A stretch of DNA of 64,000 bases from an uncultured Lachnospiraceae bacterium (lineage in GTDB: Bacteria; Bacillota; Clostridia; Lachnospirales; Lachnospiraceae), in assembly GCA_902760755.1 (NCBI GenBank), contig CACWHK010000015.1:1425-65424 (forward strand). The letters run 5' to 3'. The position numbers and the translations under genes are program-made. The notes beneath the pieces were generated by a model. The model did not search any database and was not told the DNA's origin. It saw only the letters and a program-made list of their open reading frames with translations. How positions within the stretch are numbered: the first letter of the stretch is position 1; each line of letters opens with the position of its first letter. Below are positions 28,496 to 30,925 of this stretch, piece after piece.

Positions 28496-28524
28496 TTGAC
28501 TTCCGGTGCTGTATCTGTTACAGT
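28496..28524 (+). promoter_or_regulatory. Promoter of the leader peptide and GNAT-RsgA gene
   Basis: TTGACT (28496-28501), exactly 17 bp, TACAGT (28519-28524). Strong vegetative promoter starting a roughly 225-nt leader. Confidence 0.75.
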
Positions 28525-28559
28525 GTGTACGAATTAATCTTAAAGAAAGCGAGGTATAA

Positions 28560-28625
28560 ATGATGAGTGTAGTAGCAACCCCTGTAACTGAATATAGCAT
28601 GATGACCTCGGTTTTGTCTGATTGA
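28560..28625 (+). CDS. Putative 21-residue leader peptide
   Basis: ATG ATG tandem start at 28560/28563, 21 codons (beginning MMSVVATPVT, ending VLSD), TGA stop at 28623. Its Shine-Dalgarno CGAGGT (28550-28555) is complementary to ACCTCG (28605-28610) within the same small gene, so it can self-fold. The segment 28590-28601 of the coding region is perfectly complementary to 28701-28712 near the main gene. That placement is what is expected of a regulatory leader peptide. No homology claimed. Confidence 0.6.
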   Translation: MMSVVATPVTEYSMMTSVLSD

Positions 28626-28744
28626 TCGTTTCATAAACATCAAAAAGCGTTTTCCCGTGGCCTTGTTGTCGCGGTTTTTTTGCGCCCATTTCCGGGTCTC
28701 CATGCTATATTCCGATGAAATCCAAGATTTATATAGAATGGAGA
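28590..28744 (+). promoter_or_regulatory. Predicted attenuator controlling the GNAT-RsgA gene
   Basis: Three segments can form mutually exclusive helices. A = GAATATAGCATG (28590-28601, inside the leader peptide). B = 28697-28712, whose CATGCTATATTC part is the perfect 12-bp complement of A. C = ATATAGAATGGAGA (28731-28744), which contains the ribosome binding site of the main gene and pairs with 28697-28710 over 14 bp with one mismatch. A:B frees the RBS; B:C hides it. Between A and B lies a weak hairpin CCGTG/CGCGG followed by seven T (28675-28681), a possible intrinsic terminator. Confidence 0.65.
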
Positions 28745-28752
28745 TATCAAAA

Positions 28753-30339
28753 ATGAATTCAAATATTATTATACGAAAAGAAACGAAGGACGATTATTTT
28801 GCAACAGAGCTTTGCACCCTGCGGGCATTCTGGAATCTTCACGGCCCCGGATGCTACGAACATCTGATGGTACATAAACTCAGGGATTCCAAGGATTATC
28901 TGCCGGAACTCAGCCGGGTTGCGGAGCTGAACGGGCAGATCGTCGGTGTGATCATGTACCATAAGGCACGGGTCGTAAATGAAGAAGGAGAAACCGAAAT
29001 CCTCTCCTTTGGTCCGCTGGCAGTGGAACCCACCTGCTTTAATATGGGGATTGGCGGCATGTTACTGAAGGAAACCCTGGCCCTGGCAAAGGAAGCCGGA
29101 TACCTCGGGATCGCGCTTTGCGGCGAACCGGACTACTATCCGAGATTCGGATTCCTTCGCGGTAGAGACACGAAGCTTACCCATGGCATCTACGGCACAC
29201 CGGATCCCTTTATGGTCTATCCCTTAAATGACGGGTTCGAGAAGCTGCAAGGGAAGTTCTATGAAACCGCGATCGATGACGAGTGCCAGGATGAGGCAGA
29301 GCTCGCGGAATACACCGCAAGATTCCCGTATTACAAGCCCCTGAAGCTTTCCTGCCAGTGGCTTCATGCGGAGAAGCTGGGTCGGATCTCGGAGATCCAG
29401 AAGAACAGCTTCACCATCCGCTTCTGGGAGAAGGAAATCCCGGCAAAGCTGAAGGGAAGCTTTTATGAGGCAGATGCAGAGGCCCTTCCGCTGGTGGGGG
29501 ATTACGTGACATTTTCCTATAACCCCTATGGGGATTCTACGATCCTTTCGGTCTGTGAGAGGAAAAGCCTCCTGCAGCGCCCGGATCAGGCGAAAACCGG
29601 CGTGATGCAGTACATGGTGGCAAATGCGGATTATGCCTTTATCGTGACCTCACTGAACGAGGATTACAGCTATAACCGGATCGCACGCTATGTCAGCGTT
29701 GCCCTGCAGGGAGATGTGACGCCCGTGGTGATCCTGACAAAGTCGGACCTTTGCGCTGACACCGACCGCTATGTGGAGGAAGTTACAGGCATCTCCGAGA
29801 AGGTGCGAGTCCATGCGATCTCCGCACTTCACGAGACCGGCATGGAGGCACTGGCAGAGTATCTGGTTCCCGGGACCACCATTTGTCTTATGGGCTCCTC
29901 CGGAGCCGGAAAATCCACCCTGATCAATGCCCTGGCAGGTACGGAGCTGATGAAGACCGGGGAAGTCCGCAGGTCGGATTCCACCGGAAAGCACACCACC
30001 ACCTACCGACGGCTGATCGAGCTGGAAAACGGTGTTACCCTGATCGATACTCCGGGCATGCGCGAGATCGGAATCGCCAACAGCGAAGAAGGTGTAAATG
30101 AAACCTTTTCCGATATCGAAGAGCTGGCCTTAAGGTGCCGCTTCAGCAATTGCCGGCATGAATCAGAGCCCGGCTGCGCCATCAGAGCCGCAATCCAAAG
30201 CGGAGAACTGTCGCAGGAACGCTACGACCTGTACTGCTCCCTGAACACCGAAAATGTAAGAAATTATGCCAAAAAAAAGGAAATATCCAGGTGGATCAAG
30301 GCCGAAAAGAAGGCGGGGAAAAAGAAGTTCAGGTACTAG
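28753..30339 (+). CDS. GNAT acetyltransferase-RsgA GTPase fusion
   Basis: 528 residues from ATG 28753, chosen because GGAGA lies 8 nt upstream. Residues 1-165 form a GNAT N-acetyltransferase domain (acetyl-CoA loop around FNMGIGGMLL, then YYPRFGFLRG). From about residue 205 the protein is RsgA/YjeQ: an OB-fold, then the circularly permuted GTPase with G4 TKSD (329-332), G5 SALH, G1 GSSGAGKST (381-389), G2 TTT and G3 DTPG (432-435), and a zinc knuckle C462-x4-C467-x-H469-x5-C475. RsgA acts in late 30S maturation as a ribosome-stimulated GTPase. All GTPase motifs are intact, so it should be active; the acetyltransferase substrate is unknown. The leader suggests translation-dependent control. 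Confidence 0.9.
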   Translation: MNSNIIIRKETKDDYFATELCTLRAFWNLHGPGCYEHLMVHKLRDSKDYLPELSRVAELNGQIVGVIMYHKARVVNEEGETEILSFGPLAVEPTCFNMGIGGMLLKETLALAKEAGYLGIALCGEPDYYPRFGFLRGRDTKLTHGIYGTPDPFMVYPLNDGFEKLQGKFYETAIDDECQDEAELAEYTARFPYYKPLKLSCQWLHAEKLGRISEIQKNSFTIRFWEKEIPAKLKGSFYEADAEALPLVGDYVTFSYNPYGDSTILSVCERKSLLQRPDQAKTGVMQYMVANADYAFIVTSLNEDYSYNRIARYVSVALQGDVTPVVILTKSDLCADTDRYVEEVTGISEKVRVHAISALHETGMEALAEYLVPGTTICLMGSSGAGKSTLINALAGTELMKTGEVRRSDSTGKHTTTYRRLIELENGVTLIDTPGMREIGIANSEEGVNETFSDIEELALRCRFSNCRHESEPGCAIRAAIQSGELSQERYDLYCSLNTENVRNYAKKKEISRWIKAEKKAGKKKFRY

Positions 30340-30561: not shown

Positions 30562-30649
30562 GGAGATGTACTCAAGTGGCTGAAGAGGCGCCCCTGCTAA
30601 GGGTGTAGGTCGGGGAACCGGCGCGAGGGTTCAAATCCCTCCATCTCCG
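30562..30649 (+). tRNA. tRNA-Ser (anticodon GCT)
   Basis: Class II tRNA with a long variable arm. Acceptor GGAGATG/CATCTCC, anticodon loop CTGCTAA (GCT, reads AGC/AGT), T-loop GGTTCAAATCC, discriminator G. CCA not encoded. Confidence 0.95.
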
Positions 30650-30711
30650 CTATCTGAGAAATGAAGGGATGACCTTTCCTAAGGCCGGCTTCACTCAGAT
30701 TAAAATATCAT

Positions 30712-30783
30712 TCCTCGATAGCTCAATGGTAGAGCACTCGGCTGTTAACCGAGTTGTTGTAGGTTCGAGCCCTACTCGGGGAG
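30712..30783 (+). tRNA. tRNA-Asn (anticodon GTT)
   Basis: Acceptor TCCTCGA/TCGGGGA, anticodon stem ACTCGG/CCGAGT with loop CTGTTAA (GTT), T-stem GTAGG/CCTAC with TTCGAGC, discriminator G at 30783. Confidence 0.95.
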
Positions 30784-30787
30784 TAGC

Positions 30788-30850
30788 ATGATTTTCAAAG
30801 AAAATCATACGAGTATATAGCGTGATTTTGCTTCGCAAAATAACGCTATA
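30788..30850 (+). other. Two hairpins between tRNA-Asn and tRNA-Cys
   Basis: ATGATTTTC/GAAAATCAT (30788-30808) and a 15-bp stem TATAGCGTGATTTTG/CAAAATAACGCTATA (30816-30850, one mismatch). Likely processing or spacing elements of the tRNA transcript; neither has a T run long enough for a terminator. Confidence 0.5.
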
Positions 30851-30851
30851 T

Positions 30852-30922
30852 GGTGCTGTAGCCAAGTGGTAAGGCGTGGGACTGCAACTCCCTGATCATC
30901 GGTTCAAATCCGTTCAGCACCT
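30852..30922 (+). tRNA. tRNA-Cys (anticodon GCA)
   Basis: Acceptor GGTGCTG/CAGCACC, anticodon stem TGGGA/TCCCT with loop CTGCAAC (GCA), T-loop TTCAAAT, discriminator T at 30922. Confidence 0.95.
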
Positions 30923-30925
30923 CGA

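Follow-up and report, generated by a model that had tools for sequence, protein, structure and literature searches.

The window analysed here is the whole 64,000-nucleotide stretch of DNA from an uncultured Lachnospiraceae bacterium. It contains, at positions 28753..30339 of the + strand, a gene encoding a 528-aa fusion protein in which a GNAT domain (residues ~1-160) is followed by an RsgA part (residues ~207-520). The RsgA part scores 160 bits against the TIGR00157 profile (cut-off 100), and the protein holds GSSGAGKST (G1), DTPG (G3) and the zinc site C-x4-C-x-H-x5-C. The residues of these GTPase and zinc motifs are invariant in 27 aligned proteins, save A385 of G1 and positions that do not belong to the motifs. 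PADLOC returned generic GTPase matches only. The same genome carries a second RsgA homologue (G000:C50), 33% identical across the matched stretch. Just 3' of the fusion gene, three tRNA genes (Ser, Asn and Cys) are located at 30562-30923.

The region preceding the gene, all on the + strand, begins with a sigma-70-type promoter-like site (28496..28524; TTGACT-17-TACAGT, 9/12 match, with TG ahead of the second hexamer), found where the preliminary description of the locus had placed it. Segment 1 (GAAAGCGAGGT, 28545..28555) combines the Shine-Dalgarno (SD) sequence of a leader ORF with the 5' half of a putative anti-antiterminator. The leader ORF had been read as 21 codons from 28560; the ORF is present, but its conserved AUG is the second one, which leaves 20 codons (28563..28625). 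Segment A (GAATATAGCATG, 28590..28601) pairs with segment C, as covariation supports, and segment 2 (ACCTCGGTTTT, 28605..28615) can pair either with segment 1 (anti-antiterminator) or with segment 3 (antiterminator). A candidate intrinsic terminator (28652..28681) is built of segment 3 (28652-28661), segment 4 (28668-28677) and a T-run ending at 28681. Downstream of it lie segment C (GGTCTCCATGCTATATTC, 28695..28712), a potential partner of A or D, and segment D (28730..28747), the ribosome binding site (RBS) region of the GNAT-RsgA gene.

The pairings proposed earlier were borne out by the letters of the window: 28590-28601 is the exact reverse complement of 28701-28712, 13 of 14 pairs can form between 28697-28710 and 28731-28744 (the RBS of the GTPase gene), the leader SD at 28550-28555 (cgaggt) is complementary to 28605-28610 (acctcg), and a terminator-like hairpin at 28655-28674 is followed by T7. 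Absent from that description was the complementarity of segment 2 (28605-28615) to the 5' arm of the terminator (28652-28661). When 28530-28760 was dinucleotide-shuffled 5000 times, a 12-nt perfect inverted repeat came up in 8 shuffles, and in none of the 5000 jointly with an overlapping 13/14 alternative. Folding of 28530-28775 was better than that of its own shuffles (z -2.58; 1 of 200 equally good). Promoter-like sites (4 observed vs a shuffle mean of 2.5) and terminator-like sites (4 vs 2.4) are common in shuffled sequence too, and so the case for both elements of the window is one of conservation.

A scan of genome contigs yielded 169 relatives, and the best 80 of these 169 come from Lachnospiraceae, Butyrivibrio, Pseudobutyrivibrio, Eubacterium sp., Acetatifactor sp. 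and Clostridiales/Bacillota, many of them from rumen samples. Relatives of the leader are present in many bacteria of the rumen and of other guts. The sample for comparison comprised 91 loci (L001-L011 and L031-L110) with a homologue of at least 55% identity, from which 8 duplicates were removed; 77 distinct leaders could be cut into segments. Parsing required segment 2, a preceding GAGG (or the contig start) and a following hairpin with a T-run, so the presence of the segments in all 77 is not independent evidence; the terminator was picked by pairing, and C and D by complementary motifs, which partly builds in the pairing of 3:4 and of the C:D core. Segment 1 was present in 75 of the 77, the contigs of the other 2 beginning 3' of it. 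Among the 6 loci left unparsed, L091 has no upstream sequence, and L004 (= L032) and L096 are cut off before segments 1 and 2, yet show the terminator, C and D. A GNAT-RsgA homologue without a leader in the 513 nt upstream was found at L002 (= L034). There, the start codon follows directly on the preceding gene region, with neither a promoter nor a leader in between, an arrangement that may reflect either a deletion or a metagenome-assembly artefact.

The leader ORF is intact in 75/75 leaders containing segment 1. Its length, counted from an in-frame AUG chosen by script, is 17-26 codons (21 in 57 leaders), and the spacing between its stop codon and segment 2 is nearly fixed (median and 5th percentile 17 nt, 95th percentile 17.9; 75 leaders). 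In a 43-row alignment of segments 1-4, the AUG is invariant, gaps within the ORF are of 3 nt, and the invariant columns fall in the SD, the AUG, segments A and 2, and the terminator. The unbroken frame, the invariant AUG with its SD, the near-constant stop and the 3-nt gaps are all features that a coding ORF would show. A promoter-like site (at least 9/12) was present within 95 nt 5' of the leader SD in 53/74 leaders, compared with 7/74 mononucleotide-shuffled sequences. Transcripts should therefore start before the leader ORF, which speaks against a start past 28625.

Covariation was strongest for the A:C helix, with 65 double-sided changes in 77 leaders (300 shuffles: mean 27.1, maximum 37); sliding the partners by 1-3 positions gave at most 34. 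Since the original consensus for C had included the part that pairs with A, and a few rows had been placed by hand, the count was repeated with C located by GGTCTCC alone and the hand-placed rows dropped. This recount gave 55 double-sided changes in 72 leaders (500 shuffles: mean 23.8, maximum 33). On a tree (a single FastTree tree of 76 RsgA sequences without support values), at least 24 Watson-Crick pair-type switches were counted over the eight inner pairs by the Fitch method, with a single pair contributing 9 of these; such exchanges can be seen in L042 (GAUGUG:CACAUC) and in L063 (CGUAUG:CAUACG). For the terminator stem 3:4, 16 double-sided changes exceeded the shuffles (mean 4.2, maximum 9), the hairpin itself having been selected by pairing. 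The antiterminator 2:3 gave 5 (shuffle mean 2.8, maximum 6), and 1:2 gave 0 in 77 leaders, its core being invariant. The C:D helix, with 51 changes vs a shuffle mean of 48.2, did not covary above shuffles, but the pairing itself is kept: the five core pairs are retained in 71-75 of 75 leaders. The idea of a leader-ORF attenuator with mutually exclusive helices has thus held up, in that the complementary segments are conserved in relatives and A:C covaries, although 1:2, 2:3 and C:D do not rise above their controls.

The gene downstream of the 77 parsed leaders encodes a fused RsgA in 65 cases and an unfused RsgA in 12. Five of the unfused proteins (L097, L100, L101, L103 and L108) begin with first residues of the fused form (e.g. 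NNIIIRKETKED); this IIIRKET-like N-terminus was recognized by pattern in L097 and L101 and by eye in L100, L103 and L108. It looks as if the GNAT domain had been deleted from inside a fusion in these five. Other genes were scored with a mechanical rule, fixed after the paralogues had been inspected by eye, that asks for a short ORF with an SD and then an intrinsic terminator within 400 nt upstream. The rule was passed by 0/20 low-identity, presumed housekeeping RsgA genes, by 4/10 distant RsgA paralogues from other families of the order (L012, L014, L016 and L019) and by 2/8 GNAT-only homologues, one of which has a doubtful ORF. The leaders of the distant RsgA paralogues are, by eye, unrelated in sequence, which suggests that spare RsgA genes may have come under attenuation on more than one occasion. 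A leader of another kind, containing a mini-ORF (MLSVVR or MFSVVIN), precedes the gene in the GNAT-only homologues L021-L024 (42-44% identity); at least in L021, the start region of this leader is by eye complementary to a segment that can pair with an arm of a terminator as well. GNAT-only homologues (L017, L020-L022 and L024) align to the fusion past the GNAT domain and into the N-terminal region of its RsgA part, to residues 233-283; a reading of their C-terminal ~65 residues as an RsgA-type OB domain was kept as a lead only, the comparison with stand-alone RsgA not being significant.

The distribution of the leader class was surveyed with R1, a covariance model of segments 1 to 4. Matches were obtained in 44 of 397 genomes drawn from the family Lachnospiraceae and in 17 of 391 from the class; these 17 comprise 7 family members and 10 weak matches elsewhere (E 4e-6 to 9e-4). 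The four matches outside the family that were inspected (L164-L167) were rejected as leaders, since by eye they look like plain terminators without a leader ORF. Thirty R1 loci were kept, one of them the window, and RsgA was found by tblastn in 20. Among the remaining 10, a RimI-like GNAT gene follows the leader in L128 and L138, L133 shows by eye the same GNAT start, seemingly shortened, and L135, L137 and L140 precede an MsbA-type ABC transporter gene. The following gene has no Pfam match in L134 and L136, the contig ends in L139, and L131 is followed by a gene that appears transposase-like by eye. Within 19 further family matches, L141 precedes a RimI-like GNAT gene, L143 precedes RsgA by eye, and L142, L147, L152 and L157 precede an ABC gene and then, by eye, a second one; these four ABC-type loci have no segment 2 by the pattern used. 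About half of the 19 (L148-L151, L153-L156, L158 and L159) were discarded as terminators, by eye, after other genes. The names of the GNATs and transporters are approximate, the NCBIfam scores lying under the curated cut-offs.

Complementarity of segment A to downstream sequence recurs in 4/4 scored leaders that are of the GNAT type or L174 (shuffles as good: L128 1/200, L133 2/200, L138 5/200, L174 0/200). It did not exceed shuffles in L135 (98/200), L136 (50/200), L137 (174/200) and L140 (107/200). This pattern indicates that the RBS level is common to the GNAT group and is not shared by the exporters tested. In L174, the same leader type (1501-1633) precedes a 306-aa open frame (MRDQNEVWQNDLYLQEE...).

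Folding computations, in which the ribosome was modelled as a block of ~31-35 nt of unpaired bases, gave two effects of ribosome position, one bearing on transcription and the other on the RBS. For nascent RNA ending before segment 4, the mean probability of 2:3 pairing was 0.69 with the ribosome at the start codon, 0.04 for free RNA and 0.00 with the ribosome at the stop codon; a control block between the stop and the terminator gave 0.012. Overlapping anti-antiterminator, antiterminator and terminator helices are supported by the conservation of segments 1-4 and by this dependence of 2:3 pairing on ribosome position. In full-length RNA (72 leaders), the RBS was unpaired with a probability of 0.50 with the ribosome at the start, 0.20 free and 0.20 with the ribosome at the stop, the corresponding values for A:C pairing being 0.65, 0.07 and 0.08; RBS access was higher with the ribosome at the start than at the stop in 67/72 leaders. 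Helices that alternately hide and expose the RBS, as in erm-type attenuators, are supported by these values, by the covariation of A:C and by the retained C:D pairing.

In a codon-by-codon scan (75 leaders, 65 for the RBS), codons 1-3 were the only positions at which the two levels went up together; 2:3 pairing rose again at codons 10-11 (0.41-0.46), with no counterpart at the RBS. The window itself is less pronounced. Its 2:3 helix is weaker than the family median (-7.1 vs -9.6 kcal/mol), and the probability of 2:3 pairing falls from 0.80 with the ribosome at codon 1 to 0.42 at codon 2 and to 0.00 at codon 3, so that the transcription level responds in the computation only at codons 1-2. The RBS is accessible with a probability of 0.35 when the ribosome is at the start, compared with 0.09 for free RNA and 0.23 with the ribosome at the stop, where A:C pairing is still 0.55. 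The earlier proposal that stalling or slow translation of the leader switches the gene on thus fits a ribosome held at codons 1-3, and not one held anywhere in the leader. Once segment 4 is present, the terminator dominates every state at equilibrium (mean probability 0.95-0.99), and the antiterminator exceeds it in only ~1/75 leaders with the ribosome at the start. Equilibrium folding was for this reason rejected as proof of antitermination, and read-through would have to be kinetic. It is a general point that an antiterminator, being upstream, can form first (made in PMC9226507).

Taken together, conservation, A:C covariation and an intact ORF with a nearly fixed stop support a switch at the sequence level, and we regard it as probable that the leader is a ribosome-sensing attenuator acting on both transcription and translation in the manner of Bacillus subtilis vmlR. 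When no ribosome is on the leader, segment 1 would pair with segment 2, the terminator 3:4 would form and transcription would end. During normal translation, the ribosome would reach the stop just past segment 2 and mask it, and the terminator would form again; transcripts that leak through would be shut by pairing of C with the RBS (D). An initiating or early ribosome held at codons 1-3 would cover segment 1, allowing 2 to pair with 3 before 4 is made. This pairing would delay the terminator and let RNA polymerase read through, after which the uncovered segment A could pair with C and free the RBS. The natural signal is likely to be inhibitors of translation by which ribosomes are trapped at start codons. 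The product is likely a spare, inducible RsgA paralogue, which would help 30S subunits or ribosomes cope, whether or not its acetyltransferase takes part.

Other kinds of regulation would leave some of the same traces. Alternative helices combined with a terminator are common in riboswitches, but for a ligand-binding RNA one would hardly expect an ORF intact in 75/75 leaders or invariant columns confined to the SD, the AUG, A, 2 and the terminator (43-row alignment of segments 1-4). At gathering thresholds, Rfam gave tRNAs only in the window, and six loci searched at E 0.1 gave no match for the leader; such a riboswitch is very improbable. Slightly more room is left for a sensor of peptide or amino acids, in which a specific arrest peptide or codon run stalls the ribosome, since a core of the leader peptide is conserved (mostly VTEYSM.TSV) and 41 of the 57 leaders with 21 codons have K or R at codon 5. 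It is in segments A and 2, however, that the conserved codons lie, and codons 16-18 show almost no third-position variation (entropy 0.14 each), as RNA pairing would lead one to expect. At codon 13, which lies in A, the residue is S in 32, G in 11, R in 5, C in 3 and T in 1 of 52 leaders; many changes in A alter the peptide, and thus it is pairing rather than peptide that is kept at this segment. Codons 2-6, where the stall would be required, vary in amino acid (codon 2: R 19, S 14 and I 7 of 52; codon 3: V 23 and A 20 of 52), and the RLR arrest motif of macrolide-type leaders is found in 0/75 leader peptides. Peptide sensing is accordingly also judged improbable.

Control of translation alone, in which A:C vs C:D is decisive and the terminator incidental, would be the purely translational form of the Erm-type comparison made in the preliminary description. 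That the strongest covariation is that of A:C agrees with it, as does the retention of the C:D core pairs, though C and D were located by complementary motifs. The RBS level of that comparison is retained here; the purely translational part is not, as the leader of the window contains a terminator and, by the parsing requirement, each of the 77 parsed leaders has one between its ORF and C. The double changes in 3:4 above the shuffle maximum, the near-constant distance from the stop codon to segment 2 and the complementarity of segment 2 to both 1 and 3 point the same way, and bring the leader nearer to vmlR than to erm; a translation-only device is rather unlikely. Of a comparable but somewhat higher standing, while still unlikely, is a feedback on assembly, in which immature 30S subunits or blocked initiation resulting from RsgA shortage occupy the leader start and induce the gene. 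The predicted sensing window is indeed the initiation site, and a 30S subunit parked there would mimic a drug-stalled ribosome. The gene is a paralogue, however; the genome has another RsgA at G000:C50, such copies lack the ORF-plus-terminator arrangement in all 20 cases scored, and the leader class also precedes RimI-like GNATs and, more weakly, ABC transporters. The direct feedback to 30S maturation suggested earlier is for these reasons judged less likely than a response to inhibitors.

Comparison with described systems places the leader closest to vmlR (PMC9226507), which has, as predicted here, a uORF in an anti-antiterminator, an antiterminator, an intrinsic terminator and an RBS-sequestering hairpin removed on induction, and whose inducers lincomycin and retapamulin stall initiating ribosomes. 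The likeness is one of architecture, with differences: the uORF has 3 codons in vmlR and ~20 here, where it carries segments A and 2, and the target of vmlR control is an ABC-F protein instead of RsgA or GNAT-RsgA. In Listeria rli80-hflXr (PMC6310831), a second copy of a ribosome-associated GTPase is also under ribosome-dependent attenuation, the other HflX copy elsewhere having no role in resistance; the control described there is transcriptional, and rli80 contains the RLR arrest motif that is missing here. A uORF motif before hflX is reported in PMC8632094, the main text of which does not mention RsgA. The bmrB-bmrCD system of B. subtilis (PMC4191407) is a ribosome-mediated transcription attenuator of an ABC exporter, the kind of gene preceded by the weaker R1 matches, but its 53-codon ORF contains the terminator, and RBS-level control is not mentioned in the passages that describe it. 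As the 30S-targeting kanamycin and gentamicin did not induce it (PMC4191407), caution is advisable regarding a 30S-drug signal here. In Escherichia coli toiL-topAI (PMC12121999), a uORF senses several classes of ribosome inhibitors, with tetracycline and retapamulin stalling at the toiL start codon, and the target RBS is unmasked; it differs in Rho-dependent termination, in induction by stalling anywhere in toiL and in its target, a toxin-antitoxin operon. The ermC attenuator, as outlined in PMC4191407, shares the exclusive helices, leader ORF and hidden RBS, but controls the RBS without a terminator level, and the drug stalls the ribosome within its leader. The start-codon sensing shared with toiL and vmlR, together with the company of GNATs and transporters, favours a response to translation inhibitors.

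No description of this leader was found in the titles and abstract openings of the open-access papers listed for RsgA and for ribosome-mediated attenuation, leader peptides and Lachnospiraceae. HflX splits 70S ribosomes, and RsgA acts on 30S. By analogy, HflXr is perhaps the nearest idea for the effector. A wider proposal, which we put forward tentatively and would not yet back over its alternatives, is that a family of spare RsgA proteins, many of them GNAT-fused, is silenced by a two-level attenuator and induced by drugs that trap ribosomes at start codons; its members might serve as 30S-side protection or rescue factors, the small-subunit counterpart of HflXr, and the same leader family would also control RimI-like acetyltransferases and, more weakly, ABC exporters in Lachnospiraceae.

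The gene rsgA is named in a study of producers of protein-synthesis inhibitors (PMC9290621), and in tetracycline-treated Streptomyces an RsgA pair is one of the paralogue sets listed for the genes that WblC activates (PMC7157823), a hint toward RsgA paralogues in antibiotic tolerance. If the proposed reading is true, the leader would offer a compact two-level switch, rich in natural variants, that responds to ribosomes held on the first codons. It would also explain why one leader class is common to GNATs, transporters and an RsgA, and RsgA paralogues would come under suspicion of contributing to the intrinsic tolerance of rumen and gut bacteria to antibiotics.
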